Positions 23,877 to 64,000 of a stretch of DNA of 64,000 bases are shown here, in pieces; within the stretch, counting starts at the first letter, position 1; every line of letters starts with the position of its first letter. This stretch comes from Chloroflexota bacterium (GTDB lineage: Bacteria; Chloroflexota; Anaerolineae; Aggregatilineales; Phototrophicaceae), in NCBI GenBank assembly GCA_013388735.1, contig JACAES010000035.1:1-64000 (forward strand). Reading direction: 5' to 3'. A program made the translations under genes and the position numbers. Below the pieces are notes generated by a model that was not told where the DNA came from, made no database searches, and was given only the letters and a program-made list of their open reading frames with translations.

Positions 23877-23882
23877 TATAAT
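23877..23882 (+). promoter_or_regulatory. Candidate -10 element for the glycosyltransferase gene
   Basis: A perfect TATAAT lies in a very AT-rich run, 32 bases before the GTG start. No -35 hexamer close to consensus lies at 16-18 bases, so an activator or extended AT element may be needed. Confidence 0.4.
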
Positions 23883-23913
23883 ATATATAAATTCGGGGGG
23901 ATAGGGGTTTGTT

Positions 23914-26169: not shown

Positions 26170-26214
26170 CGTCGAGGCGCTGTTTATTATTTTGTAATCT
26201 GACGATTGATTGGT

Positions 26215-26991
26215 ATGGCGGAACGCGTGGCGACAAATATCCGATCTGAAGAGTGGGTCATTCGTTTTCAACCCGTTCCGCAGCCCCGGCTGCGTCTGTT
26301 CTGTTTTGCGAACGCCGGCGGCAGCGCCGCGCAGTTTCGCTCCTGGCATCAGTTTTTGCCGGAGGGGGTGGAAATCTGCCCGGTTCAGCTGCCGGGGCAG
26401 GGCAGTCGTTTTCGGGAAAACCCTTATACAGAACTGCTGCCCCTGGCCGAAAAACTGGCGGCGGCTTTAGCGCCCTATCTGGACGTGCCGTTTGCGCTGT
26501 GGGGTTACAGCATGGGCGCTCTGGTCAGTTTTGAGCTGGCTCGCGCGCTGCAACGGGGTGGGTACAGCGGCCTGCGGCAGATGTTCATCGCCGCGCGGCG
26601 CGCGCCCCATGTTCCACCGTCGGATACGCCTCTCCATAAACTGCCGGAAGCCGAGTTTATCCAGCAGATGCAGCGCCGCTATAACGGCATTCCGGCTGCT
26701 ATCCTCCAGGAAGCCGAGATGCTGGCGCTGTTTTTGCCTGTGCTGCGCGCGAACTTCGAGATGATCGAAACGTACAGTTATCAGGCCGGCGACCGGCTCG
26801 ATTGCCCGATCACAGCCTTCGGCGGTCTGCAAGACCCGACGGTTAACACGCCTGAAATCGCCGCCTGGGGTGAACTCACGTCCAGCACCTTCCGGTATTT
26901 TATGTTTCCCGGCGACCATTTCTTTTTACAGGGTCACCAATCGGCAGTCCTGAAGGTGGTATCCAAAGACCTGACGCCTTTTCTGGCGTAA
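26215..26991 (+). CDS. Type II (editing) thioesterase
   Basis: About 258 residues, alpha/beta hydrolase. It opens with RLFCFANAGGSAAQFRSW, the oxyanion region of GrsT/RifR-type enzymes, then QLPGQGSR. The nucleophile elbow is GYSMG, a later Asp lies in FGGLQDP, and the catalytic His in FPGDHFFL. Such stand-alone enzymes remove wrong or stalled acyl groups from carrier proteins of PKS and NRPS lines, keeping them active. The ATG at 26215 is preferred over the in-frame TTG at 26206. It is the first gene of the PKS operon, 21 bases before the phosphopantetheinyl transferase. It is not a release domain, so the product still needs a terminal thioesterase or other release step. Confidence 0.92.
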   Translation: MAERVATNIRSEEWVIRFQPVPQPRLRLFCFANAGGSAAQFRSWHQFLPEGVEICPVQLPGQGSRFRENPYTELLPLAEKLAAALAPYLDVPFALWGYSMGALVSFELARALQRGGYSGLRQMFIAARRAPHVPPSDTPLHKLPEAEFIQQMQRRYNGIPAAILQEAEMLALFLPVLRANFEMIETYSYQAGDRLDCPITAFGGLQDPTVNTPEIAAWGELTSSTFRYFMFPGDHFFLQGHQSAVLKVVSKDLTPFLA

Positions 26992-27012
26992 TTCTGATGG
27001 AGACCAGTCGGC

Positions 27013-27777
27013 GTGACTGAATACGGTTACAGACGGAGTCTTGAACCGGCTGGCCTGGATTTGACGCGAGACCGGGTGGATGTCTGGGCGACTCGCCTCG
27101 ATTTTGATCCGCAGCGCGTTAAACATCTGGCAGGGCTGCTTTCGCCGGATGAGCAGGCGCGCGCCGCGCGGTTTCGCTTTGCTGTACATCGCCGGCGTTT
27201 CATCGTGGCGCGTGGGGTGCTGCGGACGTTGTTGGGGCGCTATACAAATGCTGCGCCGGAGTCTGTCCGGCTGAAGTACAGCCCCGCCGGGAAACCGTCG
27301 CCTGACCCGGATCATGGCCTGCGTTTTAACCTTTCTCACTCGCACGAGTTGGCGCTTTATGCCATCGCTTATGAGCGCGAAGTCGGTGTTGACCTTGAGT
27401 ATATGCGTCCGCTGGAGGATATTGAGCGGTTGGCCGCCGGTACGTTTTCGGCGCGGGAAAACGCCGTCTGGCGACAGCTGCCCGACGCGCAGAAGCAGGA
27501 AGGGTTTTTTAACTGCTGGACGCGCAAAGAGGCTTATATCAAAGCGTTAGGGCAAGGGCTGTCGTACCCGCTCGATCAATTTGATGTATCATTAAAACCA
27601 GGCGAACCTGCCCGGCTGTTAAGCGTCACCGGCACACCACAAGAGGTCACGCGCTGGACTTTCCAGGCTTTTAATCCGGGTGAAAACTATGTCGCTGCTC
27701 TGGTCGTTGAGGGGCAGGGATGGTATATGAGGCGCTGGCAGTATGACGACCCTTTCAAGGACGTGAGGCGGGCGTAA
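27013..27777 (+). CDS. Sfp-type 4'-phosphopantetheinyl transferase
   Basis: 254 residues, the usual length of the Sfp/Gsp group. The hallmark motifs are GVDLEYMR (magnesium-binding Asp and Glu) and FNCWTRKEAYIKALGQGL (the WxxKEAxxK motif). An upstream LSPDEQARAARFRF....RRFIVARGVLR block is typical of the N-terminal half. It transfers phosphopantetheine from CoA to the carrier-domain Ser, so it should activate the ACPs of the PKS proteins encoded directly downstream. Start is GTG with GGAG about 10 bases before it. The ribosome binding site of the first PKS gene overlaps its stop, indicating co-translation. Confidence 0.94.
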   Translation: MTEYGYRRSLEPAGLDLTRDRVDVWATRLDFDPQRVKHLAGLLSPDEQARAARFRFAVHRRRFIVARGVLRTLLGRYTNAAPESVRLKYSPAGKPSPDPDHGLRFNLSHSHELALYAIAYEREVGVDLEYMRPLEDIERLAAGTFSARENAVWRQLPDAQKQEGFFNCWTRKEAYIKALGQGLSYPLDQFDVSLKPGEPARLLSVTGTPQEVTRWTFQAFNPGENYVAALVVEGQGWYMRRWQYDDPFKDVRRA

Positions 27778-27791
27778 GGAGGGATTGGGCG

Positions 27792-30700
27792 ATGCGAGAA
27801 CCGATTGCGATTATTGGTATGGGCTGCCGCTTTCCAGGTGGGGCGAACTCACCGCAGGAATTATGGGAACTGCTGCACGCGGGAAAGGATGCCATCACCG
27901 AAGTCCCGGCAGACCGCTATGACCTTCAGACATTTTATGATCCACGCCCGGCAACACCCGGCAAAGTGATGTCGAGATGGGGCGGTTTTTTGGACGAAAT
28001 TGATCGCTTTGATCCACTCTTTTTTGGCATTTCCCCACGCGAAGCGGAGCGGATGGACCCGCAGCAGCGCCTGCTCTTAGAGGTTGCCTGGGAAGCGCTG
28101 GAGGATGCGGGACAGGTTGCGAATACACGGGACATTGAGCAGACGGGCGTTTTCGTCGGTATGTGGCTCAACGATTTTGAAGCCCGACTTTTCCGCGATC
28201 CGGCCAAAGTGGATTTTTATATGACGACTGGCAGCGGTCGTTATTCGGCGTCAGGACGGCTGTCATATGTGTTTGGTTTTCAGGGGCCGAGTATCACGAT
28301 TGATACGGCCTGTTCATCGTCGCTGGTTGCGGTTCATCTGGCTGTGCAAAGCCTGCGCGCAGGTGAGTGTAATCTGGCGTTAGCGGGTGGGGCGAATGTC
28401 ATTTTACAGCCGCATATCACGATTGCTTACTCGCAGTCCCGGATGATGGCCCCGGATGGCCGCTGCAAATTCGGAGACGCGCGCGCAGATGGTTATGTTC
28501 GCAGCGAAGGCGCGGGACTGGTCGTCCTCAAACGGCTGGCAGACGCGCTGGCCGATGGTGATCCGATTTATGCCATTATTCGCGGCAGCGCCACTAACAA
28601 TGATGGCCGCAGCAGCGGCTTTTTGACCACACCCGGCGGCGCGGGGCAGGAAGAAATGCTGCGGAAAGCCTATAAAGATGCGGGAGTGCCGCCCGCAGAG
28701 GTGCAGTATATTGAGGCTCATGGCACCGGGACGGCAGCCGGTGACCCGGTTGAGATCGGCGCAATCGGCGCGGTTGTGGCGGAGGGCCGCTCCCCTGGGC
28801 AGTTCTGTACAGTAGGGTCGGTCAAGACAAACCTGGGTCATACGGAGGGCGCGGCAGGTGTGGCCGGTTTAATCAAGGTGGCGCTGGCGCTTAAACACCG
28901 CACGATCCCGGCCAGCCTGAATTTTCAAGCGCCAAATCCCAGTATACCCTGGGAAACGCTGCCGGTGCGTATCCAGACCGAACAAACGCCCTGGCCTGCC
29001 GAACCAGGACAGGCCGTTGGTGGCGTAAGCGCCTTTGGAATCGCGGGGACGAACGCCCACGTGGTTCTGCAAGAAGCGCCCGCGCGCGATTATCCGGCAG
29101 CGCCGCGTGCCGATGTTTATGTGCTGCCGCTTTCGGCGCGGACGCCGGAGGCGCTGGTTGACCTGGCGCGCGCATATGAAGTGACTGCCGGGCAGTCCGA
29201 TTTGCATGATTTATGTTATTCGGCCAGTGTCCGGCGGACGCACCATCCGTTCCGTCTGGCAGGGGTGGCGCATTCACCGGAAGAACTGGTCGAGCAGCTT
29301 AACGCTTTTGGCAAAGGCGAAACCCGGCGCGGGCTGGTAGCTGGCACGCAGGATCAGGCGGCAGAACGGCGCGTGGTTTTTGTCTTTCCCGGCCAGGGCG
29401 GGCAGTGGTTGGGCATGGGACGCCGGCTTTTTGAGCAGGAGCCGGTCTTCCGCGAGGTCTTAGAACGCTGCGCGGCGGCTGTGCAGCCCTATGTGGACTG
29501 GGATTTACTGGTCGAACTGCTGCGCGCCGATGCAAACACTTCCCGCATGGATGAAATTGATGTCGTTCAACCGGCTTTATTTGCTATCCAGGTGGCGCTG
29601 GCCGAACTGTGGCGCTCGTGGGGAATCGCGCCGGATGCGGTGATCGGTCACAGCATGGGCGAGGTGGCCGCCGCGTATGTCGCCGGCGCGCTGAGCCTGG
29701 ACGATGCCGCGCGTATCATCTGCCGCCGCAGCCAGTTGATGAAGCGCGTCAGCGGCATGGGCGCAATGGCGATGGTCGAACTGCCGCTGGAAGAAGCCGA
29801 GGCGTCGCTGGGTGAATACGCCGACCGGGTTGGGGTGGCCGTCACCAACAGCCCGCGCTCCTGCGTGCTGTCCGGCGACCCGGCGGCGCTGGCCGAAGTT
29901 ATAGCCGCGCTGCAAAGCCGCGACGTGTTCTGCCGTCCGGTCAAAGTGGATGTGGCCGCTCACAGCCCCCATATGGACGCCCTGCGTCCGGAACTGGTGC
30001 GCGACCTGGCCGGGCTTCAACCGGCGGCTGCGGCTGTTCCGGTGTACTCAACCGTGACCGGCGAACTGCGCGACGGCGCGGCGCTCGACGCGGATTACTG
30101 GGGCGCGAACCTGCGCCAGCCGGTGCTGTTTGCGAAGGCCGTCCGGCACGCGCTGGAGGACGGTTATAACACGTTCATTGAGATCAGCCCGCACCCGGTT
30201 TTGATGCCGGCGATTGAACGCGGCCTGCGGGATTACGGCCTGGATGATGAGACGGCGGCGGGCATCGTGACGCTGGCTTCCACCAAACGCGACGAAGACG
30301 AGCGGCTGGTGATGCTGGAATCACTGGCGGCGCTGTATACACGCGGCGGCGCGATGGATTGGCGCTGCCTGTATCCGGCGGGTGGCCGCCCTGTCCGGCT
30401 GCCGACTTACCCCTGGCAGCGCGACCGTTACTGGTTTGAAGCGCAGCCTGCCCGGCAGACCGCGCGCCGCGCCGACGGCCATCCGCTGCTTGGCCCGCGC
30501 TGGCGGTCGGCAATTCATGCCGGCACGTATTTCTGGGAGACGGAACTCGATGGTGCGGCGCTGCCTTACCTGGCCGACCACCGCGTCGAGGGCAATATCG
30601 TGCTGCCGGCGGCAGCTTTCGCCGAAATGGCGCTGGCGGCGCTGGCAGAAGTATCCGGCGAAGGCCGGCTTGAGGCATTAACCATCCAGCAGGCGCTCAT

Positions 30701-33700
30701 TCTTTCAGAAAATGAAGCGCGGGTCGTTCAGGTGGTGCTGACGGCGGAGTCGTCCGAAACGTTCACGTTCCGCTGCCTCAGCCGCCCGACCGTCGACGGC
30801 GCTTCCGAATGGACGCTGCACGCCAGCGGCATCACACGAGTGAGGATGCCGCCGCAGCCGGAAGCGTTTTCGCCGGAAGCCATCGAGTCGCGCTGCGCTG
30901 AGCCGGTGTCCGGCGCCGACTACTATCAGGCGATGACGGCGCGCGGGCTGAACTACGGCGCGAACTTCCAGACGGTGGCGCAGTTCTGGCACGACGAAAA
31001 ACATCAGGAAGCCTTTGCGCGGCTTCAGGTGCCGGAAGCGGTTCGCACCCAGGGTCAGGCTTATCGGATACATCCGGCGCTGCTGGATGGCTGTTTGCAG
31101 CTTTTAGTGGCGCTGATGCCGCCGGGGGACGATGCCTATCTGCCGGTCAGCGCCGAGCGCATCGGCCTGTATGCCCGACCGGACATTCAGTCCGAACTGT
31201 GGGGTTACGCTTATCGCTCGTCGGAAGCGGGCGATTATGCCGACGGTGATGTGTTTCTTCTGGATGCCAACGGGGGTGTGATCGCAGGCGTTTATGGCCT
31301 GCGCCTGAAGCGTGTCGAACGCGCGATCAGAGGCGATTCGCTTGAGCGGCTGCTGTATCGCGTCGAGTGGCAGGAGAAGCCGCTGCTCGGCGGCGTGCTG
31401 CCGCAGCCTGACCAGCCGGGAAGCTGGCTGGTGCTGTCCGGCGGGAGTATGGGCGCGGAACTGGCCGCGCGCCTGGAAGCGAGGGGCGAACGCTGCGTTG
31501 TGGTTTCGGTCGGGGACAGTTATCGCCGGATTGAAGCCGGCCAGTATACGATTGACCCTGGCGACGCGGCAGGTTTCAGGCGGCTTGTGCAGGAGGCTTG
31601 CGGCGCAGGCAAACCCGCCTGCCGGGGGGTTATCCACCTGTGGGGACTGGAAAGCGGAGCCGCGCCGTCAGAGGCCGAAACACACGGCAGCATCGGCGCG
31701 CTACATCTGGTTCAGGCGTTGGCGCAGGCCGGGTGGGAAACGCCGCCGCGCCTGTGGCTTATCACGCGCGGGGCGCAGCCGGTGGCTGGTGCAGTAGAGA
31801 GCGCCGCGCAGGCCGCCCTGTGGGGTCTGGGTGCGGTGATCGCCAATGAACACGCCGAACTGCGCGCCACCCGTGTGGATCTAAGCCCCGAAGGGCTGCC
31901 GGAAGATGTGGACGCGCTGTTCCGCGAACTGTGGCTGAATGACGGCGAAGATCAGATCGCGCTGCGGGGCAGTAAACGTTACGTCGCGCGGCTGGCGTTG
32001 GGTTTGCCCGCGCGCGAGGGCGAGCGCGTCGAGACACGATGGGTTACGGCGGCGGAGCAGCCGTTCCGCGCCGGCATTTCAGCGCCCGGCATTCTCGATA
32101 ACCTGGAACTGCGGGCGATGGCGCGCCGCCAGCCCGGGCCGGGGCAGGTTGAAATCGAAGTTCATGCCACCGGGCTGAACTTCATGAACGTGATGGCCGC
32201 GCTCGGCGCGCTGCCCGGTTATGCCAACGGCGTCGGGCCGCTGGGAATCGAGTGCGCGGGTGTTATCAGCGCCGTTGGGGATGGCGTGGATACCTTCCGG
32301 ACAGGGGATGAGGTGATCGCCGTCGCGTTCGACAGCCTGGCGACGCACGCGCTGGCCGACGCGCATCTGGTGGCGCGCAAGCCGGGCGGCATGAGTTTTG
32401 TCGAGGCCGCTTCGATCCCGATCATCTTTCTGACGGCCTATTACGGTCTGTTCCATCAGGCGCGGCTGGAAGCGGGCGAGCGCGTTTTAATCCACGCGGC
32501 TGCCGGGGGTGTTGGCCTGGCGGCGGTGCAGCTTGCCCAACAGGCCGGGGCGGAAATCTACGCGACGGCGGGCAGCCCGGAAAAATGCGCGTTCCTGGAA
32601 TCGTTGGGCGTCGAACATATCATGGACTCGCGTTCGCTGGCTTTTGCCGATGAGATCATGGCGCAGACCGGCGGCGAGGGCGTGGATGTCATCCTGAACT
32701 CACTGGCGGGGGAAGCGATTCCCAGGGGATTAGCGATTTTACGCCCTTATGGGCGCTTCGTTGAAATCGGCAAGCGCGACATTTACCAGAACAGCCAGGT
32801 CGGGCTGATGCCGTTCCAGAAGAATCTGTCTTACTTCGCGGTTGATCTGGACAGGATGGCGCGGGAGCGCCCGGCGGCGCTGGGCGTAATTCTTCGGCAG
32901 CTTGTCCGGCGTTTTGAAACCGGCGAACTGAGGCCGATCCCGACGCAAGTTTTTTCGATGGCCGATATGGCCGGGGCTTTCCGCCATATGGCGCAGGCCA
33001 AACACATCGGCAAAATTGTCGTGGCGCGAACTGACGAGCCGCTGCCGGTCGTTTTTGCGCGGGAAAGCGCCCCGGTGCGCGGCGATGGCACATATCTTAT
33101 CACCGGCGGCCTGGGCGGGCTGGGATTGACGGTTGCCCGCTGGCTGGTGGAGCAGGGGGCGCGGCATCTGGTGTTGACCGGGCGGCGCGGCGCTTCTGGA
33201 ACCGCGCTGGCGGCTGTTCATGAGCTGGAAGCGTTGGGGGCGGTTGTGCAGATCGCGCAAGCCGACGTGTCCGACCGGGATGCTGTGGCGGAAATGCTGC
33301 GGCTGATCGAAGCGACCATGCCGCCGCTGCGGGGTGTGGTTCATGCGGCGGGCATCCTGGACGACAGCCTGCTGGCGCAGATGACGCGCGAACAGTTCCG
33401 GCGGGCAGTATCGCCCAAGATGGACGGCGCTTGGAATCTGCACACGCTGACTGAAGGGCAGACGTTGGATTTCTTCGTGCTGTTTTCGTCGGTGACAGCC
33501 CTGCTCGGCATACCGGGGCAGGGCAACTATGCCGCCGGTAATGCCTTCATGGACGCGCTGGCGCACTACCGGCGCGCGCGTGGGCTGCCGGGGTTGAGCA
33601 TCAACTGGGGTCCCTGGTCGGGCGTTGGTTTGGCGGCGGCTGAGGCGATTCGCGGCGAACGGCTGGCTTCGCGCGGGTTGGGCAGCCTATCGCCGGATGA

Positions 33701-34316
33701 AGGCATGGCGGTCTTCCGGCGCTTGATGACGGGTGATACCCCGCCGCAGGTCGCCGTCATGGCGCTGGATGTCGGCGCGTGGACGCGGACGTATCCGGCC
33801 AGCGCGCATGGTTCGCTGTTGAGTTCGCTTCAGCAGGAAGCGGTAGAAACCGCGCAGGCTGCGGGCAAGCCAACACCGGTTGAGGGCGATTTCCGGCAGG
33901 CGCTTTTGAGCGCCGAGCCGGGACGGCAGCGGCGGTCGCTGCTGGAGAACCATATCCGCGAGCAGGTGGCGCAGGTGCTTCGGATTGCGCCGGGGCGCAT
34001 CAGCCTTCAGCAGCCGTTACGCGAACTGGGTATTGACTCGCTGCTGACTTTGGAACTGCGCAACCGGCTGGAGTCCAGCCTCAAACTTACGCTGTCGGCG
34101 ACGCTGATTTTTAACTACCCGACGGTAGCCGCCCTGATGGGGCATCTGGCCGAGAAGATGAATATTCCGCTGGATGCAGCGGTCGAAACGCCGGACGCGC
34201 CGCCGGATGCTGCCGAACCGCCGGTGGCCGAACTGGATGCGCTGTCACGTGATGAAATTGAAGCCCTGCTGGCTGAAGAGTTGAAATCCATTGACGATCT
34301 GTTGAAAGGAAACTGA
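27792..34316 (+). CDS. Type I PKS module 1: KS-AT-DH-ER-KR-ACP
   Basis: 2174 residues. KS 3-430 has active Cys in DTACSSS and the two His in EAHGTGT and NLGHTEG. AT about 530-830 has [12 protein letters not shown] about 896-1175 has [11 protein letters not shown] (HxxxGxxxxP) and [11 protein letters not shown] structural non-catalytic KR half lies about 1190-1430. ER about 1434-1750 has [17 protein letters not shown] about 1765-1960 has [11 protein letters not shown] (B-type) and the Ser and Tyr of [20 protein letters not shown] about 2050-2120 has GIDSL. The set is fully reducing, so the beta-carbon should become methylene. The KS begins two residues after Met, so there is no N-terminal docking helix, unlike all its sisters. 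The C-terminus has an acidic [10 protein letters not shown] helix. Ribosome site AAGGAGGG. Confidence 0.96.
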
Positions 34317-34317
34317 C

Positions 34318-39885: not shown

Positions 39886-39910
39886 CGGGACATCCACTGG
39901 AGGAGAGAGT

Positions 39911-50900: not shown

Positions 50901-50927
50901 AAAGATCGCCCGCGAGTACAACATCAT

Positions 50928-50982
50928 CCCGGAAAGACAGCGATGAGCCGCGCAATTTTAGGCGTAATTTATGTCTTCCGGG
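50928..50982 (+). promoter_or_regulatory. Inverted repeat in the only long gap of the PKS operon
   Basis: CCCGGAAAGACA (50928-50939) pairs with TGTCTTCCGGG (50972-50982), with one bulged base across a 32-base loop, and GTTTTG follows shortly after. It may be an attenuator, an mRNA-stabilising hairpin or an operator between PKS4 and PKS5. No clear internal promoter was found. Confidence 0.5.
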
Positions 50983-51015
50983 TAGTTTTGATGTGCGTTG
51001 ATTGGGGGATGGTTT

Positions 51016-54000: not shown

Positions 54001-57000
54001 CAGGTCGAGGATTTTGTCATCCACGAAACGCTGGTGGTGGGGGACGAGGGGCGCGTGGTTCAGGTGGTTGTGACGCCGCGTGAGGACGAACGGGCCGCCT
54101 TCGAGTGCTTCAGCCAGGGCGAAGGCGATGAGGACTGGCAGCTTCACGCATCCGGCGCGCTGGTCGGCGAGAAACCCGCCGCGCCGCAGGCGGTTTCGCT
54201 GGAAGCGGCGCACGCCCGCTGTACCGAGACGATCAGCCGAGAGGCGCATTATGCCCGTCTGCGCGACAGCGGCCTGGACTTCGGCAGCAGCTTAACAGGC
54301 GTGGTCGAAATCCACCGGCGCGATGGCGAGGCGCTGGGTCTGATTCGCCTGCCGGAAATCAACATGCCGGAACTGTCGGCTTACCATATGCATCCGGCTC
54401 TGCTGGACGCCTGCGTGCAGGTGATGGCCGCCACTATGCCGGATACGGGCGAGGTCTTCCTGCCGTTGAGTTTCGACTATTTCCGCCTGTACCGGCAGCC
54501 ATCGGCGCAGGTATGGGGACACGCGCAGCTCCAGAGCAGGCCGGACGGTCAGCGGGAAACGTTCGGCGGGGACGTGCGGGTGCTGGATGACGGCGGGCAG
54601 GTGATCGCGGAAATCCTGGGGATGCGCTTCAAACGCGCCGGCCAGGATATTCTGCTCAGTCTGGCGCAGTCACAGGTGGATGACTGGCTGTACGAGGTGG
54701 ACTGGCTGCCGCTGGAAGGTTTCGGCCAGGTGGACGCCCCGGCGGAAGCGCGCGATTTACCTGCGCCGGAACAGTTGGCCGAGCAGCTTCATCCGCGATT
54801 GGCGGCGCTGGCGACACAGCACGGGCTGCCTCGTTATACCGGTGAGCTGCTGCCGCAGATGGAAAAACTGAGCGCCGGTTATGTAATTCAGGCTTTGCGG
54901 CGCTTGGGCTGGAATCCCCATCCCGGCGAACGATTTTCCACCGAAGAACTGGCCGACGAACTGGGTATTCTGCGGCAGCACCGGCGTTTGTTAGGGCGGC
55001 TGCTGGAAATCCTGAGCGAGGACGGTTTGCTTAAACGCGCCGGCGACGGGTGGGAAGCTGTTCAAATGCTGCCGGTTGTGCCGGGGACTGAGGGACGCCT
55101 CCATGCCTTAATTGAGCAGTACCCGGAATATGGCGCTCAGTTGGAAATCACCGGGCGCTGCGGCCAGCAGCTGGCCGAGGCGCTGACCGGCCAGGTGGAT
55201 TACCTGCAACTGCTGTTCCCGGACGGCGGCATCGCTACCGCCGAACGCCTGTACCGCGAACCGCCGGTCGCGCACATTTATAACGGGCTGATGGGTGAAG
55301 CGGTCGCGGCGGTGATCGAACGGCTGCCGCAGGATCGCCCGATTCGTATCCTGGAGATCGGCGGCGGCACGGGCGGCACGACCTCTTACGTCGCGCCGGT
55401 TCTGCCTGCCGGGCGGGTGTCGTACCTGTTCACCGATATTTCGCCGCTGTTCCTCGCCAGGGCGGAGCAGAAATTTGCCGATTATCCTTTCATACGCTAC
55501 CAGACGCTTGACATCGAATCTGACCCGGCGGCGCAGGGCTTGGCCGGGCAGTCGTTCGATCTGGTGATCGCGGCCAATGTCATCCATGCGACGGCTGATC
55601 TGCGCGTGACGCTGGGCTTTATTCGCCAGCTTCTCGCGCCGGGCGGCCTGCTGCTGATGCTGGAAGTGACCGCGCCGGAACGCTGGGTAGACATCACCTT
55701 TGGACTGACTGACGGTTGGTGGCGGTTCGTGGACAGCGACCTGCGCCCGGCCTATCCGCTGCTTAAACCGGCGCAGTGGTTCGATGTGCTGCGTCAGGTC
55801 GGTTTTTCCGGGGCGGCGGCGCTGCCGGAAAACAGCGCGGACTACATGGAGCAGGCGATTATCCTGGGGCAGAACGCGGCCCAGGAAAGCGGAAACTGGC
55901 TGATTTTCGCCGATGGCGGCGGGGCCGGACAAATGCTGGCGGAAGACCTGCAAGCGCGTGGGCAGATCTGCGCGCTGGTCTTCCCCGGTGAGGCTTACGC
56001 GGCGTTGGGCGATGGCTGCTGGCAGATCAATCCGGCGGAAACGGACGATTATCAGCGGCTTCTGCGGGATGCCGGCGGCGCGTCTTATCGCGGCGTGGTG
56101 CATCTGTGGAGTCTGGATATCGAACCCGGCGCGCTGGACTGGGCGCTGCCGCTGGGTTATGGCAGCGCGTTGAATCTGGTCAAGGCGCTGGCGGCAGTCG
56201 GTGGAGAAGCGCCGCGTTTGTGGCTGGTCACGCGCGGGGCGCAGCCTGCCGCCTGGGAGTCGCAGCCTGTAGCAGTCGAACAGTCGCCGTTGTGTGGATT
56301 GGGCAAAGTGATCGCGCTGGAGCATCCCGAACTGCGCGCCGCGCGGGTTGACCTCGATCCGGCAGAAAGCGCCGAAAACCGCCGGATGCTGCTGGAGGCG
56401 GTCTGGTCGGCAGATGGCGAAGACCAGATCGCAGCGCGTAACGGCGGTTGGTATGGCGCGCGGCTGGTGCGCGGCCTGGGCATCCGGCACCGACCGGCGA
56501 ACACCGAACAGCCGGTGCAGCTTGAGATCACGGCGCGCGGCACGCTGGACAACCTGGTGTTACAGCCGGCAGTCCGCCGGCGCCCCGGCCCCGGCCAGAT
56601 CGAAATCCGCGTTCATGCGACAGGGCTGAACTTTAAGGATGTCCTGAACACGCTGGGCATGTATCCGGGCGACCCCGGCCCGCTGGGCGGCGAGTGCGCC
56701 GGGCGGGTGACAGCCGTCGGCGAAGGCGTAACGGCGTTCAGGCCAGGCGACGACGTGATCGCCCTGGCCGGGGGATGTTTCGGCACGTTTGTGACCGCCG
56801 ATGCGGCGCTGGCTGCGCCCAAACCACCGGCACTCTCGTTCGAGGAGGCCGCCGGCGTGGCGATTCCCTTTATCACCGCTTATTACACGCTGATCTATCT
56901 CGGCAAACTGTCGGCAGGGGAGCGTGTGTTAATCCACGCGGCGGCGGGCGGCGTCGGCATGGCGGCGGTGCAGCTTGCTCAGCGCGCCGGGGCGGAAATC

Positions 57001-58734
57001 TTCGCCACCGCCGGCAGCCCGGAAAAACGCGAATTCTTAAAATCGCTCGGTGTACAGCACGTGATGGACTCGCGCACGCTGGACTTCGCCGATGAGGTGA
57101 TGCGGATCACCGGCGGGCGCGGGGTGGACATGGTGCTGAATTCGCTGGCGGGGGAGTTCATCCCTAAGAGCCTGTCGGTGCTGGCGGAGGGCGGGCGTTT
57201 CCTGGAAATCGGCAAGAGCGGTCTGCTCACCGACGAGCAGGCCGCCGCATTGGGGCGCGGCAGGTCGTATTTGATCGTGGACTGGACGGACGATGTTCGC
57301 CGCAATCCGGCTTTAATCCGCGAAATGCTGCTGGACATCCTAGCGGCGCTGGACGATGGTTCGCTGCGCCCGCTGCCGGTTCGCACTTTCCCGATACACG
57401 AAGCCGTCAGCGCCTTCCGGTATATGGCGGCGGCGCGGCATATCGGCAAGATTGTGATTTCGCAGGATACAGGCGCGCCGATTCGTTCGGACGGCACCTA
57501 CTGGATCACCGGCGGCCTGGGCGGCCTGGGTTTGCTGACGGCGGAATGGCTGGTCGAGCAGGGCGCGCGCAGCCTGGTGCTGATGGGACGGCGCGGCGCA
57601 GATGATACCGCCCGCCGGGCGATTGCGCGAATGGAGCAGGCCGGGGCGCGGGTGTTTGTGGCGCAGGGGGACGTTTCTGACGAGCAGGATGTGACGCGGA
57701 TTCTGGAAGGAATCCGGCAAACGCTGCCGCCGCTGCGCGGCATCATTCATTCGGCGGGCGCGCTGGATGACGGCGTGCTGCTTCAGCAGGATTGGTCGCG
57801 GTTCGCCACCGTGTTTGCGGCGAAAGTGGACGGCACATGGCTGCTGCACCGGCTGACGCAAAACCTGCCGCTGGACTTTTTCGTGATGTATTCATCGGTG
57901 GCATCCCTGATCGGCTCGTCCGGGCAGGGCAACCATGCCGCCGCCAACGCCTTTATGGACGCGCTGGCCTACCACCGTCGAGCGCAGGGGCTGCCGGCGC
58001 TCAGCATCAACTGGGGCGCGTGGTCGGAGATCGGCGCGGCGGTCGAACATGATGTATTCGGTCGTATCGGGTTGCAGGGGGTCGGCGCGATACCCCCGGC
58101 GGAAGGGCTGCGCGTGCTGGCGGGATTGATGCAGGGGCCTTCGCCGCAGGTTGGTGTCATGCCGGTGGCCTGGTCGAAGTTCCTGCGGCGGTTCGCTGCC
58201 GGGGCGGAGCCACCCTTCTTTGCGGAAATCGCCCGCGAGACGCGGCAAAAACAGGCTGTGGTGGCCGCCTCTCAAACACAACCGGAGACACAGCCGGATA
58301 TTCTGCGGCAGTTGGCAGAGGCCGTCCCGGCCAAACAGCGGGCGCTGCTGGCGGCTTTCGTGCAGGAACAGGCGGCGCGGGTGCTGGAACTGGACTCGCC
58401 GCGCGCGGTCGGCGAACGGACGCCCCTGAGTGAAATGGGGCTGGATTCGCTGATGGCCGTCGAACTGCGTAACCGCCTGGGCAGCGGCCTGGGGTTAAAA
58501 CGTTCGCTGCCGGCAACCCTGGTTTTTGACTATCCAACGGTTGAGGCGATTGCCGGGTATCTGGCGCAGGAGGCGCTGGGGCTGGAACAACCGCAGCCGG
58601 AGGCCGCGCCTGCGCCGTCGCATGAGCCGGTTGTGAGCGGAGACGCGATGGCCGATTTGCTCGACGCGCTTGAAAACCTGTCTGATGAAGAAATAGACCG
58701 GCGCTTATCCGAAAAGACGAAAAACGGGGATTAA
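51016..58734 (+). CDS. Type I PKS module 5: KS-AT-DH-cMT-ER-KR-ACP
   Basis: 2572 residues. The ATG at 51016 has GGGGGA upstream; an in-frame TTG at 50998 is less likely. A docking helix (LKQAFLALEEMQARLEAVE) precedes KS about 35-460. AT about 568-870 has GHSVGEFVAA and a HAFH malonyl-type motif. DH about 935-1215 has NDHRIYGTALLP and HPALLDACVQ. cMT about 1245-1618 has ILEIGGGTGGTT and IAANVIHAT. ER about 1844-2145 has [17 protein letters not shown] about 2160-2350 has TGGLGGLG and LDD, with His in place of the usual Tyr (SSGQGNHAAAN), a variant I recall from other PKS. ACP about 2440-2520 has GLDSL. The full set should give a methyl-branched, saturated unit. The C-terminal LENLSDEEIDRRL helix docks to the next protein. 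Confidence 0.95.
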   Translation: MTGKTDGTQLSPLKQAFLALEEMQARLEAVEKARTEPIAIIGMGCRFPGGADSPERYWDLLRDGVDAISEIPPDRWDVDAFYDPDPNVPGKSSVRYGAFIRQPVDHFDPQFFSISPREAGSMDPQQRLLLEVSWEALEHAGIAPDKLSGAPVGVFVAVTSSDYAQLFMKAGDATLLDAYYASGIAHSIVSGRLSYFLGLQGPSLTIDTACSSSLVATHLAVQSLRNGECRMALAGGVNLMLSPDNYVALSKYGMLAPDGRCKAFDAEADGFVRGEGCGMVVMKRLADAQADGDRILAVIRGSALNQDGPSSGLTAPNGPAQQAVIRAALDNAGVEAWQVGYVETHGTGTSLGDPIEVQAIGAALCAGRADDNPLAIGSVKTNIGHLEATAGIAGLMKAVLCLMHREIPPHLHFHNPSPHIPWQKWPIIVPTELTPWYGVDGRLIAGVSSFGFSGTNAHVVLEAAPAIEPVEAAVERPLHVLALSARNEAALRELAGRFNDYLADETTARLADVCFTANAGRAHFNHRVSITAGSPDELREKLAAFLNGQEAAGLVGGLVERVDKPKVAFLFTGQGAQYVNMGRQLYETQPAFRAALDRCAEILAPHLEYPLLSVLYPEPGRESALLDDTAYTQPALFALEYALAQLWRSWGVEPSAVMGHSVGEFVAACIAGVFSLEDVLRLIATRGRLMSSLPEGGAMAAVFAGEARVTEAIAAYADCVSIAAVNGPDNIVISGDGAVVQTILDTLKSEGVKSKRLAVSHAFHSPLMDSILEPFEQAAASVQYAPPRIRLLSNVSGQAAGAEVTTPAYWRGHVRQAVQFARTIESLHRQGYEIFLEIGPGPTLMGMGQRCLADVENPGVWLPSLRPGRDDWEQMLGSLGALYVQGVAVDWAGFDRDYPRHKLALPTYPFQRSAYWVAQFKAQTRRAAVPRGDVLHPLLGSRVRSPLKIIQFENVLSAETLPFLNDHRIYGTALLPATGFIEAAVAAGRVLYGGGQVEDFVIHETLVVGDEGRVVQVVVTPREDERAAFECFSQGEGDEDWQLHASGALVGEKPAAPQAVSLEAAHARCTETISREAHYARLRDSGLDFGSSLTGVVEIHRRDGEALGLIRLPEINMPELSAYHMHPALLDACVQVMAATMPDTGEVFLPLSFDYFRLYRQPSAQVWGHAQLQSRPDGQRETFGGDVRVLDDGGQVIAEILGMRFKRAGQDILLSLAQSQVDDWLYEVDWLPLEGFGQVDAPAEARDLPAPEQLAEQLHPRLAALATQHGLPRYTGELLPQMEKLSAGYVIQALRRLGWNPHPGERFSTEELADELGILRQHRRLLGRLLEILSEDGLLKRAGDGWEAVQMLPVVPGTEGRLHALIEQYPEYGAQLEITGRCGQQLAEALTGQVDYLQLLFPDGGIATAERLYREPPVAHIYNGLMGEAVAAVIERLPQDRPIRILEIGGGTGGTTSYVAPVLPAGRVSYLFTDISPLFLARAEQKFADYPFIRYQTLDIESDPAAQGLAGQSFDLVIAANVIHATADLRVTLGFIRQLLAPGGLLLMLEVTAPERWVDITFGLTDGWWRFVDSDLRPAYPLLKPAQWFDVLRQVGFSGAAALPENSADYMEQAIILGQNAAQESGNWLIFADGGGAGQMLAEDLQARGQICALVFPGEAYAALGDGCWQINPAETDDYQRLLRDAGGASYRGVVHLWSLDIEPGALDWALPLGYGSALNLVKALAAVGGEAPRLWLVTRGAQPAAWESQPVAVEQSPLCGLGKVIALEHPELRAARVDLDPAESAENRRMLLEAVWSADGEDQIAARNGGWYGARLVRGLGIRHRPANTEQPVQLEITARGTLDNLVLQPAVRRRPGPGQIEIRVHATGLNFKDVLNTLGMYPGDPGPLGGECAGRVTAVGEGVTAFRPGDDVIALAGGCFGTFVTADAALAAPKPPALSFEEAAGVAIPFITAYYTLIYLGKLSAGERVLIHAAAGGVGMAAVQLAQRAGAEIFATAGSPEKREFLKSLGVQHVMDSRTLDFADEVMRITGGRGVDMVLNSLAGEFIPKSLSVLAEGGRFLEIGKSGLLTDEQAAALGRGRSYLIVDWTDDVRRNPALIREMLLDILAALDDGSLRPLPVRTFPIHEAVSAFRYMAAARHIGKIVISQDTGAPIRSDGTYWITGGLGGLGLLTAEWLVEQGARSLVLMGRRGADDTARRAIARMEQAGARVFVAQGDVSDEQDVTRILEGIRQTLPPLRGIIHSAGALDDGVLLQQDWSRFATVFAAKVDGTWLLHRLTQNLPLDFFVMYSSVASLIGSSGQGNHAAANAFMDALAYHRRAQGLPALSINWGAWSEIGAAVEHDVFGRIGLQGVGAIPPAEGLRVLAGLMQGPSPQVGVMPVAWSKFLRRFAAGAEPPFFAEIARETRQKQAVVAASQTQPETQPDILRQLAEAVPAKQRALLAAFVQEQAARVLELDSPRAVGERTPLSEMGLDSLMAVELRNRLGSGLGLKRSLPATLVFDYPTVEAIAGYLAQEALGLEQPQPEAAPAPSHEPVVSGDAMADLLDALENLSDEEIDRRLSEKTKNGD

Positions 58735-58739
58735 CTGAT

Positions 58740-61700
58740 ATGAGCGATCTGCTCGACCGAATCAGCCAGCTTTCACCCAAACGGCTGGCGCTGCTGGTGA
58801 TGGATTTGCAGGCCAGACTGGAGGCCAGCGAACGCCGGAAGTCCGAGCCAATCGCTATCATCGGCATGGGCTGTCGTTTCCCCGGCAGCGCCAATAATCC
58901 CGATCTGTTCTGGGAGAACCTGCGCAACGGCGTGGACTCGATCACCGATATTCCGGCTTCGCGCTGGGATGCCAGCGAACTGTACGATCCCGACCCGGAC
59001 GCGCCCGGAAAAATCGCCACGCTGTGGGGCGGCTTTATAGATGATGTTGATCGTTTCGAGCCGCAGTTTTTCGGCATCTCCCCGCGCGAAGCGGTGACGA
59101 TGGACCCGCAGCAGCGCCTTATGCTGGAAGTGAGCTGGGAGGCGCTGGAAAACGCGGGTTACGCGCCGGATAAACTGTCCGGCAGCAAGAGCGGCGTGTT
59201 TGTCGGCATCTGCAATAACGATTATGCCCAGATGATCCTGGGCGGCGACGCCGAATTGTTTGATATGTACGTGTCTACCGGCGGCGCGCACAGCGTGGCT
59301 TCCGGGCGCATTTCGTATATCCTGGGGCTGCAAGGCCCGGCGGTGTCGGTGGATACGGCCTGCTCGTCGTCGCTGGTGGCGATTTATATGGCGGTGCAAA
59401 GCCTGCGGAATGGCGAATGCCAGATGGCGCTGGCAGGCGGCGTGAATGTCATCCTCGCGCCGGAGGTGACGGTCACGCTGTCCAAAGCCAACATGATGGC
59501 ATCTGACGGGCGCTGCAAAACATTTGATGCGTCCGCCGACGGATTCGTGCGTTCGGAGGGCTGCGGCGTGGTGGTGCTGAAGCGGCTGTCCGACGCGCTG
59601 GCCGATGGCGATCAAATTCTGGCCGTCATTCGCGGCGCGGCCATCAACCAGGATGGCCGCAGCAACGGCCTGACCGCGCCGAACGGCCCGTCGCAGGTGG
59701 CCGTGATTCGTGAGGCGCTGGCCGATGCCGACCTCGAACCGCACGAAGTCAGCTATATTGAAACGCACGGCACGGGTACATCGCTGGGCGACCCGATAGA
59801 AGTGCAGGCGTTGGGCGCGGCGCTGGGTAAAGGCCGCCCGGCAGATCGGCCATTAATGATCGGTTCGGTCAAAACCAACATCGGCCACCTGGAATCGGCG
59901 GCGGGTGTGGCCGGGTTAATCAAACTCGTCCTCAGTTTGCAGCACCGGGAGATTCCGCCGCACCTGCATTTTAACCAGCCCAGCCCCTACATCCCCTGGG
60001 ACGAACTGCCCGTCACCGTGCCGACGGCGCGCACCCCCTGGGAAGTGGGCGACGGGCGGCGGATTGGCGGCCTGAGTTCGTTCGGCTTCAGCGGCACCAA
60101 TGTGCATCTGATTGTTGAGGAAGCGCCGGCGCGCCGGCCTGAACCGGCAGCGGTCGAAAGGCCGGCGCATATCCTGGCGCTTTCGGCGCGCAGCGAGGCC
60201 GCGCTGCGGGCGCTGGCCGAACGGTATGCAGCGGATTTGGCGAGTAAATCGCCCGAATCGCTGCCGGATGTCTGCTTCACGGCCAACGCCGGGCGGGCGC
60301 ACCTCAATCACCGGCTGGCGCTGGTGGCCGAAACGCTGCCGCAGATGCGGGAAACGCTGGCCGCTTACTTAAACGGCGAGCGCGTGGACAATCTGATCGC
60401 CGGGCAGGTGGGGCCGCGTATGGGCCTCGCTTTCCTGTTCACAGGGCAGGGGTCGCAGTACGTCCAGATGGGGCGCGAACTGTACGAGACTCAGCCGACC
60501 TTCCGCCAGGCGCTCGACCGCTGCAACGAACTGCTGAAGCCGGAACTCGGCCAATCGCTGCTGGCGGTGCTGTACCCTGAGCCCGGCCAGGACTCGCCCC
60601 TGAACGACATTCTGTTTGCCCAGACGGCTCAGTTCGCCGTCGAATACGCGCTGGCCGAACTGTGGCGCTCGTGGGGAATCGTGCCGTCGGTGGTGATGGG
60701 TCACAGCGTGGGGGAATATGCCGCTGCCTGCGCGGCGGGTGTGTTCAGCCTGGAAGACGGCCTCAAACTGGTGTCGGCGCGTGGGCGTTTGATGCAGTCG
60801 GTTTCGCTGTCCGGCGAGATGGCGACCGTGTTCGGTTCGGCTGAACGGGTGGCGGAAGCGATTAAACCTTACGCCGACCGGGTATCCATCGCCGCCGTCA
60901 ACGGGCCGGAAAGCGTGGTCATCTCCGGCGAAAAAGTGGCCCTGCAAGCGGTGATAGATCTTCTGAAAGAAGAGCGCATCCGCGCGCGGCGCTTGCAGGT
61001 AACGACCGCCTCACATTCACCGCTGATGGAACCGCTGCTGGATGCGTTCATGAAGACGGCGCGGGAAGTCACCTACCACCCGCCGCAGATTGACCTGATC
61101 TCCGGCCTGACCGGGCAGCTTGCCGGGCGCGAAATCGCCAGCCCGGAATACTGGCGGCGGCACATGCGGGAAGCGGTGCAGTTTTACCCGGCCATGCAGA
61201 CACTTTACGAGTTGGGCTGCCGGCTGTTTGTTGAGATCGGCCCCGCGCCCAACCTGCTGGAGATGGGCCAACGCTGTATCCCCGGCGATGACTGCCGCTG
61301 GCTGCCATCGCTGCGTCCCGGTCACAGCGATTGGACGCAGATGCTCAAAAGCCTGGGGGGGCTGTATGCCGGCGGCGTGGAAGTGGACTGGGCAGGCTTC
61401 GACCGGGATTACCCGCGCCGCCGTCTGCCGCTGCCGACGTATCCTTTCCAGCGCGAACGATACTGGATTGACGCCGCCAGCCGTCAACCGCCGGCTGCCT
61501 ATCTGTCCGGTAAAACAATTCACCCGCTGCTGGGCGCGCGGCTGCGTTCGCCCGCGCTTCAGGACATTGTGTTTGAGTCCCAGATGAACGCGCATTATCC
61601 GGCGTTTCTCGATCACCACCGCATTTATGGCGTGGTGGTTCTGCCATCACCGGCGTACCTGGAAATGGCACTGGCAGGGGCGGAGGACGCTTTTGGGCCG

Positions 61701-64000
61701 GGGCCGCATGGCGTGGAGAACCTCAGCATCCAGGAGGCGCTGATTCTGCCTGAGGAGGGCTTCCGCGCCGTTCAGTTGGTCATCCGGCCTGCCGGCGAAA
61801 ACCGGGCATCCTTCCAGGTGTTCAGCCTGGATGAGCGGGATGAGTGGAAGCTCCACGCGACCGGCGGCCTGGCGCTGCGGATCGGCGCGCCGCAGACCGA
61901 TGGCGATTTTTCGGTCGAAGCTGTTCGCGCGCGCTGCGCCGAACAGATCGGCGGGGACATATATTATGAGCGCGTGCGTGAACTGGGCTTAGAGTTTGGC
62001 CTGAACTTCCAGGGCATTCGGAATCTGTGGCGGCGTGACGGCGAAGCCCTGGGGCAGATTCACCTGCCGGAAGGGCTGGTCAACGATGCCAGAAACTACA
62101 CTATCCACCCGGCGTTTCTGGATGCGTGTTTTCATCTGCTGGGCGCGCCGCTGCCGGATTATAACCTGGACACAGCTTACCTGTTGATCGGTATCGAAAG
62201 TTTCCGGCTGTATCGCAGGCCGGGCGCGCAGCTGTGGAATCATACCGTGCTGACCTGGCACGACGAATCGAACAAAGAGACGTTTTCCGGCGACATTCGT
62301 CTGTACGACTCGGACGGCCAGCTTGTGGCCGAGGTGGGCGGTTTGCAGCTTAAGCGGGCCGGGCGCGAGGCGCTGATGCGGGTCGCGCGCCAGCGGCCAG
62401 ATGACTGGCTGTACCGCGTGGAATGGCTGCCGAAAGCGCATCCGGTCAGCGGCGCTGGTTCGCCGCTGGCGGCTGCCGCCCTGGACGATCTCGCCGCGAC
62501 GATGATTCCGCGGTTAGAGGCGCTCGGCGAACAGCACAACCTGGAAGCCTACCGCGGCTTTTTCGCCCACCTTGACCGCCTGAGTGCGGCGTATGTCACG
62601 GCGGCGTTCGGCCAGTTGGGGGTTGATCTGACGCCCGGCGCGCAATTTTCGGCTGAAACGCTGGGGGTGATTGAACCTTACCAACGGTTGTTGTTCCGGC
62701 TGCTAAACATCCTAGTGGAGGACGGCATCCTGCGGCACGCAGGCGAGTCCTGGGAAGTGGCGCACCTGCCGGAACTGGATACGCAGGCTTATACGGTTTC
62801 GCTGGCCGAGCAGTACCCGGATTACCAGGCCGAACTGTCGCTGGTCGGACGCTGCGGGCCGCAGTTGGCCGGCGCGCTGCGCGGCCAGATAGACCCACTT
62901 GATCTGCTGTTCCCCGGCGGCTCTCTCGAATCGCTTGAACAGCTTTACCAGGATGCGTCGTTCGCCCAGGCTTACAATACGCTGGTGCAGGAGACGGTCG
63001 CTGAACTGACTGCCGGGTGGCCGGAAGACCGCCCGCTGCGCGTGCTGGAAATCGGCGCGGGAACAGGCGCGACCACCGCGTACCTGCTTTCGGCGCTGCC
63101 CCCTGACCGCGTGGAATATGTGTTCACCGATCTGTCGCCGCTGTTCCTGGAGCGCGCCGCCGAGAAGTTTGGCGCGCGGCTGCGTTATGAACGGCTGGAC
63201 ATCGAACAGCGTCCGGCGGCGCAGGGTTTCGTCGGGCAGTCGTTCGATCTGATAATCGCTGCTAACGTGCTGCACGCCACCCGCAATCTGCGCGAGTCCC
63301 TGGAACACGCTCGCCAACTGCTCGCGCCGGGCGGCGTGTTGCTGCTGCTGGAAAGCGCCGCGCCGCAGCGGTGGGTTGACCTGACTTTCGGCCTGACCGA
63401 CGGCTGGTGGCGTTTTGTTGATACCGATCTGCGCCCGTCCTATCCGCTGCTGACGCCGGAAGGCTGGCTGGCACTGCTGGATTCGGTCGGTTTTGAACAG
63501 TCCGCTTCGATTGCCGGACGGCAGCCGGGCAGCATCCTGTCGCAGCAGGCCGTTATTCTGGCGCGCGCGCCGCAGGTTGGGGGCCTGGCGGCAGATGCGA
63601 CGGGGAACTGGCTGATTTTTGCCGACGAGTCCGGTTTCGGCCAGCAGGTGCGAGATGCGCTGGCCGCGCGCGGTGGGCGCTGCCGGTTCGTCAAACCGGG
63701 CGATTCTTATCTAGGTGAGGGGCATACCTTCCAGATCAATCCTTTCGAGCCGGATGATTACCGGCGGCTGCTGGCCGAGACCGGGGAAACCTTGCGCGGT
63801 GTGGTATACCTGTGGGGGCTGGCGGGGGTTGGCGAGCCGGAATTGAACGATGATGATCTGGCGTTCGTCGAGCAGTATATGTGCGGGGGCGCGCTGTATG
63901 TGACGCAGGCGCTGGTCGCAGCCGCACAGCCGGCGGCGCTTTGGCTGGTCACACAGGGCGCACAGCCGGTAGACGGCGATGCTGCCGCGCCGATTCAGGC
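58740..64000 (+). CDS. Type I PKS module 6: KS-AT-DH-cMT... (partial, runs off the window)
   Basis: Open from the ATG at 58740, 5 bases after the PKS5 stop, to the right edge: 1753 residues with no stop. Frame checks at the KS active site and near the end agree. A docking helix (PKRLALLVMDLQARLEASE) is followed by KS about 35-460 (DTACSSS, ETHGTGT, NIGHLES), AT about 563-870 (GHSVGEYAAA, TASH motif), DH about 929-1205 (LDHHRIYGVVVLP, HPAFLDACFH) and cMT about 1240-1607 (VLEIGAGTGATT, IAANVLHAT). The last about 130 residues are the start of the structural KR-like linker seen in its sisters before ER and KR (LIFADESGFGQQV, LWLVTQGAQP). Further reductive domains and the ACP must lie outside the window. 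Confidence 0.94.
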   Translation, partial: MSDLLDRISQLSPKRLALLVMDLQARLEASERRKSEPIAIIGMGCRFPGSANNPDLFWENLRNGVDSITDIPASRWDASELYDPDPDAPGKIATLWGGFIDDVDRFEPQFFGISPREAVTMDPQQRLMLEVSWEALENAGYAPDKLSGSKSGVFVGICNNDYAQMILGGDAELFDMYVSTGGAHSVASGRISYILGLQGPAVSVDTACSSSLVAIYMAVQSLRNGECQMALAGGVNVILAPEVTVTLSKANMMASDGRCKTFDASADGFVRSEGCGVVVLKRLSDALADGDQILAVIRGAAINQDGRSNGLTAPNGPSQVAVIREALADADLEPHEVSYIETHGTGTSLGDPIEVQALGAALGKGRPADRPLMIGSVKTNIGHLESAAGVAGLIKLVLSLQHREIPPHLHFNQPSPYIPWDELPVTVPTARTPWEVGDGRRIGGLSSFGFSGTNVHLIVEEAPARRPEPAAVERPAHILALSARSEAALRALAERYAADLASKSPESLPDVCFTANAGRAHLNHRLALVAETLPQMRETLAAYLNGERVDNLIAGQVGPRMGLAFLFTGQGSQYVQMGRELYETQPTFRQALDRCNELLKPELGQSLLAVLYPEPGQDSPLNDILFAQTAQFAVEYALAELWRSWGIVPSVVMGHSVGEYAAACAAGVFSLEDGLKLVSARGRLMQSVSLSGEMATVFGSAERVAEAIKPYADRVSIAAVNGPESVVISGEKVALQAVIDLLKEERIRARRLQVTTASHSPLMEPLLDAFMKTAREVTYHPPQIDLISGLTGQLAGREIASPEYWRRHMREAVQFYPAMQTLYELGCRLFVEIGPAPNLLEMGQRCIPGDDCRWLPSLRPGHSDWTQMLKSLGGLYAGGVEVDWAGFDRDYPRRRLPLPTYPFQRERYWIDAASRQPPAAYLSGKTIHPLLGARLRSPALQDIVFESQMNAHYPAFLDHHRIYGVVVLPSPAYLEMALAGAEDAFGPGPHGVENLSIQEALILPEEGFRAVQLVIRPAGENRASFQVFSLDERDEWKLHATGGLALRIGAPQTDGDFSVEAVRARCAEQIGGDIYYERVRELGLEFGLNFQGIRNLWRRDGEALGQIHLPEGLVNDARNYTIHPAFLDACFHLLGAPLPDYNLDTAYLLIGIESFRLYRRPGAQLWNHTVLTWHDESNKETFSGDIRLYDSDGQLVAEVGGLQLKRAGREALMRVARQRPDDWLYRVEWLPKAHPVSGAGSPLAAAALDDLAATMIPRLEALGEQHNLEAYRGFFAHLDRLSAAYVTAAFGQLGVDLTPGAQFSAETLGVIEPYQRLLFRLLNILVEDGILRHAGESWEVAHLPELDTQAYTVSLAEQYPDYQAELSLVGRCGPQLAGALRGQIDPLDLLFPGGSLESLEQLYQDASFAQAYNTLVQETVAELTAGWPEDRPLRVLEIGAGTGATTAYLLSALPPDRVEYVFTDLSPLFLERAAEKFGARLRYERLDIEQRPAAQGFVGQSFDLIIAANVLHATRNLRESLEHARQLLAPGGVLLLLESAAPQRWVDLTFGLTDGWWRFVDTDLRPSYPLLTPEGWLALLDSVGFEQSASIAGRQPGSILSQQAVILARAPQVGGLAADATGNWLIFADESGFGQQVRDALAARGGRCRFVKPGDSYLGEGHTFQINPFEPDDYRRLLAETGETLRGVVYLWGLAGVGEPELNDDDLAFVEQYMCGGALYVTQALVAAAQPAALWLVTQGAQPVDGDAAAPIQ

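Follow-up and report, generated by a model that had tools for sequence, protein, structure and literature searches.

Assembly lines in which single-module polyketide synthase (PKS) proteins are joined to nonribosomal peptide synthetases (NRPSs) are a style of cyanobacteria and myxobacteria, with curacin as an example. The gene cluster described here begins within a 64,000-base stretch of DNA (the window) from an uncultured Anaerolineae bacterium, and it resembles such curacin-style systems in its single-module proteins, its acyltransferase (AT) domains in cis, and its embedded C-methyltransferase (cMT) domains. The AT of its fifth PKS is nearest in the PDB to CurL (402 bits). The cluster differs from those systems in its module order and NRPS tail, and in having neither a loading module nor a release domain in cis. 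Work with Herpetosiphon, a member of the same phylum (Chloroflexota), has described the PKS/NRPS products siphonazole, a bisoxazole, and auriculamide, which is derived from chlorotyrosine (PMC4902038). These share a mixed PKS/NRPS origin with the product predicted below, but their scaffolds, as described, are unrelated to it. No description of the present module order was found in the literature searched, which was mostly without subscription papers and so provides weak evidence, and no matching pathway was found in the literature on Rhizobacter, Chloroploca, anammox Chloroflexi, or spiroketal PKS-NRPS systems. The cluster apparently represents a real family of natural-product pathways that is undescribed and built of known machinery, the parts of the line all being of known kinds.

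The window comprises the first 64,000 bases (1-64000) of contig G000:C150, which is 115,807 bases long, in a genome of 4.27 Mb that is 94% complete and whose assembly gave no match to small-subunit rRNA. The whole cluster spans contig positions 26206-77263, past the window's right edge. At a probability of roughly 0.7, we read the locus as a complete modular cis-AT PKS-NRPS gene cluster with seven PKS modules and an NRPS, which would build the chain set out below, join it as an amide to asparagine, and release it by means of two hydrolases, H2 and H1. The domains behind this reading were called with Pfam, and extra profile models (HetI, TIGR, and Pks2/Pks13-type) were scored against their curated cut-offs.

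PKS1 through PKS6, a type II thioesterase (TEII), and a 4′-phosphopantetheinyl transferase (PPTase) are all encoded on the plus strand without internal stops, and no stop or frameshift occurs across the 51 kb of the cluster. The initial annotation had proposed a thioesterase, a PPTase, and six collinear cis-AT proteins of one module each, and this is confirmed by the Pfam domains, their positions, and the intact frames. Its module sets for PKS1, PKS3, PKS4, and PKS5 also agree with Pfam, its repeated C-methylation is seen in the cMT domains of PKS4, PKS5, and PKS6, and its suspected Chloroflexota host is indeed a member of the Anaerolineae. PKS2, which it listed as a ketoreductase (KR) module, is that in function, although a dehydratase (DH) region is present. 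PKS6 does contain the DH and cMT assigned to it, but the set as a whole was a truncation because the window ends before its KR. Extension of the contig to the right, a check that the annotation had proposed, recovered the rest of PKS6 followed by an EamA transporter, PKS7, an NRPS, and the two hydrolases; the idea of a pure PKS line with module 6 as its last is thus superseded. Stops or assembly joins that would break the modules were looked for and none was found. Moreover, the same module order recurs in independently assembled genomes, with PKS proteins 85-90% identical and flanking genes identical in kind. Together with the intact frames, this rules out an assembly artefact.

Each module carries its own AT in a ketosynthase (KS)-AT-(reductive)-acyl carrier protein (ACP) arrangement, as is typical of cis-AT modular type I PKSs. 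The KS Cys-His-His residues occur in seven of seven domains (DTACSSS, EAHGTGT or ETHGTGT, and KTN.GH or KAN.GH), and all ATs carry GHSxG. The motifs of the DH, enoylreductase (ER), and cMT domains are intact throughout the line except in DH2, where ESRVRG... replaces HPxxxD and the active-site His and Asp are lost, which makes PKS2 functionally KR-only. The cMT of PKS4 has the S-adenosylmethionine (SAM) motif EIGAGTG as well as the His and Glu positions. Two KRs depart from solved KRs such as DEBS KR1, AmphB, and MAS: KR3 (window 45257-45970) has Ala at the catalytic Ser, and KR5 (window 57478-58194) has His at the catalytic Tyr. Both changes recur among related lines in two phyla. Across the family, the KRs of DH-cMT-ER-KR and cMT-KR modules all have His for Tyr, those of DH-cMT-KR modules retain Tyr, and the DH-ER-KR module ahead of the ketone module mostly has Ala for Ser in its KR. 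No paper on the Tyr-to-His substitution was found in the literature searched. A simple loss of activity in KR3 and KR5 is judged unlikely: DH3 and ER3 are intact, as are all ER motifs and DH residues of the reducing modules, while DHs that are not used mostly decay, as they have at the module-2 position in almost every KR-only module (G541 is an exception). We infer on these grounds that both KRs are functional.

The predicted product follows from these domains. In a tree of the ATs, a split with a support of 100 places ATs 1-3 on the DEBS-type (methylmalonyl) side and ATs 4-7 on the CurL side; AT1 is nearest to DEBS (methylmalonyl) ATs in the PDB, and the genome encodes methylmalonyl-CoA mutase-like proteins (two matches). 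ATs 1-3 may therefore use methylmalonyl-CoA, so that methyls in the first part of the chain may derive from extender units besides SAM, whereas the malonyl lineage of ATs 4-7 implies that the three methyls of that part would come from SAM. An acyl starter would load directly onto the KS of PKS1, and the chain would then pass through the seven modules in gene order, gaining in turn a reduced CH2, a CH(OH), a reduced CH2, a ketone with an alpha-methyl, a CH2 with an alpha-methyl, a CH=C(CH3), and a CH=CH. The NRPS would then couple this chain through an amide bond to a single amino acid, which its adenylation (A) domain code predicts to be asparagine, giving starter / CH2-CHR / CH(OH)-CHR / CH2-CHR / C(=O)-CH(CH3) / CH2-CH(CH3) / CH=C(CH3) / CH=CH-CO-Asn, with R as H or CH3. 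The single hydroxyl and the single alpha-methyl ketone foreseen in the initial annotation correspond to PKS2 (KR with a dead DH) and PKS4 (cMT only); its mostly reduced, methyl-branched, lipid-like chain is true of only a part, because the end of the line would contribute an unsaturated stretch with a methyl branch and then an amino acid. The module-2 hydroxyl is 1,5-related (delta) to the module-4 ketone, and closure of the free product to a six-membered hemiketal should therefore be possible. Where module 6 is of the cMT-KR kind (Rhizobacter, G383, G402, and G541), a second 1,5-hydroxyl would arise and a 6,6-spiroketal is conceivable. Release as a tetramic acid is excluded by logic, the beta-carbon being reduced by the last PKS module. 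Of the accessory proteins, TEII would clear stalled chains, the PPTase would activate the carriers, and EamA would export the product.

The NRPS consists of condensation (C), A, and peptidyl carrier protein (PCP) domains with the motifs HHxxxDG (HHIALDG) and GGHSL, making the line a PKS-NRPS hybrid. Some 60 residues ahead of the C domain (MSVAELLAALSEKGIELW...) look like a TubC docking domain by eye only; the part scanned with Pfam (L017:64-1476) begins inside the A domain. By the ten-residue rule, the code DLTKIGEVG is predicted to specify Asn. Other lines are read in the same way: VDWVVSIAD as beta-Ala in G001, DILQLG... as Gly in most of the rest, and DFWNVGMVH as Thr, followed by Gly, in Rhizobacter; G005 and G006 have DPRHFG(F/Y)QA, a code to which the rule assigned no amino acid.

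What stands out among close relatives is the replacement of the whole NRPS-H1-H2 tail, apparently by natural recombination. Over the stretch compared between the window's genome and G006, flanks included, all proteins are 77-91% identical except the NRPS (38%), H1 (54%), and H2 (58%). The DNA identity of 84% ends at 71909, just past the PKS7 carrier, and is restored at 81-82% from about 77414-77432, just past H2. The other tail is shared by G005 and G006 at 93% DNA identity and is fused to PKS7. The G+C content says nothing of a foreign origin, because both versions of the tail (55-57%) are lower than the PKS genes (62-64%).

This tail is also where release would take place. The NRPS ends 33 residues past its PCP, with no C-terminal thioesterase or reductase, and among the line tails read an in-cis thioesterase (PF00975) occurs only in the last NRPS of G402, near which no H1 or H2 was found. 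By contrast, the NRPS is followed by H1 and H2 in all eight Chloroflexota lines that have a readable tail and lack such a thioesterase (G000, G005, G006, G015, G001, Chloroploca, G131, and G383); the tail of G541 is cut off and stands outside this comparison. Where the tail was replaced, both hydrolases diverge jointly with the NRPS. In H2, Cys116 is invariant in eight of eight sequences together with an Asp-His pair, and in H1 the place of the nucleophile is taken by Arg120, likewise invariant in eight of eight. In AlphaFold2 models of moderate confidence (mean pLDDT 77 and 81), both residues sit where strand turns into helix, at the nucleophile elbow, and Foldseek placed both proteins among alpha/beta hydrolases of many kinds, which indicates the fold and no single function. 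Since the NRPS has neither a thioesterase nor a reductase, release is most likely in trans, and the chain would probably be released by H2 with its Cys nucleophile, perhaps helped by the nucleophile-less H1. If true, such a two-hydrolase release would explain how PKS-NRPS lines like these, without a thioesterase, free their products. Hydrolases of the TIGR03101 and TIGR03100 families are paired in exosortase loci. H1 and H2, which are neighbours as well, resemble them, H1 scoring 118.6 bits with TIGR03101 (exosortase A-associated hydrolase 2; cut-off 202.75) and H2 100.3 bits with TIGR03100 (exosortase A-associated hydrolase 1; cut-off 168.45), both short of the cut-off; no exosortase turned up beside them, although no search was aimed at exosortases. 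As a separate observation, the Chloroploca cluster contains a GDSL-like hydrolase (L071:6077-7207), and so, by similarity judged by eye, does the tail of the G383 cluster (L143), its place being immediately upstream of H1; none was seen in the window's cluster.

Searching with the methyltransferase of module 4 revealed orthologous clusters in five genomes of the same genus (G001, G005, G006, G007, and G015), in further Chloroflexota (G383, G402, G131, G541, and G531), in Ca. Chloroploca sp. Khr17, and in three strains of the betaproteobacterium Rhizobacter (SG703, Root1238, and OV335). Their common core reads KR / DH-ER-KR / cMT / DH-cMT-ER-KR / (DH-)cMT-KR / one or two more modules / NRPS, mostly accompanied by TEII, PPTase, and EamA. 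Some contigs carry only part of this core, in G541 no DH-ER-KR module was seen ahead of the cMT gene, and in Rhizobacter SG703 and Root1238 a single open frame holds the KS-AT and cMT parts of the separate cMT gene. The Chloroploca and Rhizobacter lines likewise run TEII - KR - DH-ER-KR - cMT - DH-cMT-ER-KR - (DH-)cMT-KR - last module - NRPS, with EamA near the end, but their proteins are 45-55% identical to those of the window's line, they have six modules rather than seven, their last module has an ER, unlike PKS7, and their NRPSs are read as Gly (Chloroploca) or Thr-Gly (Rhizobacter) rather than Asn; module 6 of Rhizobacter, unlike PKS6, has no DH. A tree of 84 KS domains groups them largely by position (first-KS clade 100, module-4 clade 97, and weaker module-5 and module-6 groups), which is consistent with one elongation per module in gene order and is no proof of it. 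Strong matches to the keto-type cMT module occurred in only a handful of the 400 phylum and 396 class genomes screened, so the distribution is patchy.

The start of the line varies as well. Long-start lines, with a DH-ER-KR module ahead of the KR module, occur in G000, G006, G001, and G402 (G005 fits, its contig beginning inside PKS1), and short-start lines, with the KR module first, in G015, G383, Chloroploca, G131, G541, and Rhizobacter. The first KS, including that of PKS1, belongs to one clade in all of these, whatever reductive domains follow, while the AT and KR of the second long-start module are sister to those of the first short-start module (G001/G015: AT 100, KR 93; G402/G383: AT 91, KR 87). 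In approximately unbiased (AU) tests on these pairs, which were picked after the trees had been seen, grouping of the KS by module was rejected (p 9e-51 and 3e-97); grouping of the first-module ATs was rejected for G001/G015 (p 0.01) and not for G402/G383 (p 0.41). The simplest reading is the gain or loss of an AT-DH-ER-KR-ACP-KS unit, the KS being orthologous by position and the AT-to-KR part orthologous to the neighbouring module. The extra module appears to behave as the AT-...-ACP-KS unit of the module definition behind PKS exchange units, reviewed as a concept in PMC10661043; the difference is that the present case would be a natural gain or loss among members of one family. Within one genus and beyond, then, one AT-to-KS unit at the start and the NRPS-release cassette at the end vary on an otherwise constant core. 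Such natural pairs would make two engineering questions testable, namely where the true borders of PKS modules lie and whether an NRPS and its trans-acting release enzymes need to be exchanged jointly. For Chloroflexota, in which few polyketides have been characterised, the cluster also offers a defined and complete pathway together with a set of its natural variants.

Several points weigh against the assignment of a complete line with this product. The line has no loading module, its assembly order is assumed from collinearity, and the AT motifs VAAH, QASH, and TASH are non-standard. With KR3 lacking its Ser and KR5 its Tyr, reduction at two modules is not certain; Asn and the other A-domain readings are predictions; and Rhizobacter has only a distant H2-like gene (31%), H1 not having been found there. 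A decaying or silent cluster is conceivable, since the substitutions seen in KR3 (Ser to Ala), KR5 (Tyr to His), and the DH of PKS2 are real. This is very improbable for 51 kb without stops or frameshifts, in which the ER motifs and DH residues of the reducing modules are all intact, the more so as the His of KR5 is found in every module-5 KR and the Ala of KR3 in most lines, in both phyla. It is also improbable that the locus is a lipid-type PKS for a methyl-branched, mostly reduced fatty acid of the glycolipid or mycoside-like kind. Three modules do have the full reducing set, the best alignment of KR3 is to mycobacterial MAS, and PKS4 and PKS7 match Pks2/Pks13-type models; however, those scores fall far under the cut-off, the places of the ketone, hydroxyl, and unsaturated modules in the line are constant throughout the family, and the line closes with a DH-KR module and an NRPS rather than with a lipid ligase or transferase.

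Release as a macrolactone or other ring concerns only the last step. Here the module-2 hydroxyl would attack the NRPS-bound thioester with H2 as the cyclase, and it is true that a hydroxyl-setting module stands near the chain start in every line and that H2 bears a Cys nucleophile. Even so, the ketone can consume the delta-hydroxyl as a hemiketal and the fold search among alpha/beta hydrolases singles out no cyclase, so that ring closure appears unlikely, if worth keeping in mind, beside a linear Asn amide freed by H2 and H1. A broader proposal, offered tentatively and at somewhat less than even odds, is that these lines form an undescribed polyketide-peptide family across Chloroflexota and Betaproteobacteria. 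Its Chloroflexota members would have a two-protein release device, a Cys hydrolase with a dead partner, which would form one cassette with the terminal NRPS and be inherited and swapped along with it; the cap (Asn, Gly, beta-Ala, and others) would in this way be exchanged on a fixed hydroxy-ketone core, and members with a module-6 hydroxyl would yield a 6,6-spiroketal.

Table 1. Genes of the cluster, with window positions unless the contig is named.
Feature	Position	Strand	Basis and remarks
Type II thioesterase (editing)	26206..26991	+	PF00975, 142 bits; true start probably a few codons further in
Sfp/HetI-like 4′-phosphopantetheinyl transferase	27013..27777	+	PF01648 and PF22624; HetI model 223 bits, under its cut-off
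PKS1 KS-AT-DH-ER-KR-ACP	27792..34316	+	Pfam; active sites intact; KS Cys/His/His present
PKS2 KS-AT-(dead DH)-KR-ACP, hydroxyl-setting	34318..39885	+	Pfam; DH His and Asp lost
PKS3 KS-AT-DH-ER-KR-ACP	39911..46507	+	Pfam; KR Ser to Ala; DH and ER intact
PKS4 KS-AT-cMT-ACP	46491..50900	+	Pfam; no reductive domain, predicted alpha-methyl ketone
PKS5 KS-AT-DH-cMT-ER-KR-ACP	50998..58734	+	Pfam; KR Tyr to His
PKS6 KS-AT-DH-cMT-KR-ACP	58740..64000, gene to 65480 of contig	+	KR and ACP past window
EamA transporter	contig 65477-66376		follows PKS6
PKS7 KS-AT-DH-KR-ACP	contig 66454-72033		
NRPS C-A-PCP	contig 72030-75476		
H1 alpha/beta hydrolase	contig 75492-76307		from L017:1492
H2 alpha/beta hydrolase	contig 76301-77263		to L017:3263

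Some details of individual genes may be added. TEII has the motifs GYSMG and GDHFF, which are kept in eight related clusters, and PKS1 has neither an N-terminal docking segment nor a loading module. The start given for PKS3 is residue 93 of an open reading frame called from 39635 and follows the starts of the G005/G006 orthologues.

On the 3′ side, the cluster is followed by a DegT-type aminotransferase, a TetR regulator, and a recombinase; a serine recombinase lies at contig 80756-82246 (L017:6756-8246), some 3.5 kb downstream. Upstream, window 12383-19190 encodes a histidine kinase of 1618 residues that has some nine PAS domains, together with a hybrid of response regulator and histidine kinase and a member of the BtpA family; when three flanking genes were scanned with PADLOC, the one match was a weak one, to the histidine kinase. 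Between these and the cluster, a flippase, an asparagine-synthase-like protein, and a glycosyltransferase (window 20373-25236) form a small polysaccharide-type group that is also kept in G006.

Other cMT-containing PKSs were met in the course of the searches. PKS4-like KS-AT-cMT-ACP modules were seen in clusters that differ in other respects and have adenylation-type domains upstream (L054 of Nostoc ATCC 43529 and L060 of SAR324). Another conserved PKS family is probably represented by an open frame of roughly 3,400-3,500 residues with one cMT, which recurs in other families of Chloroflexota (G076, G117, G279, G159, and about 20 other genomes).

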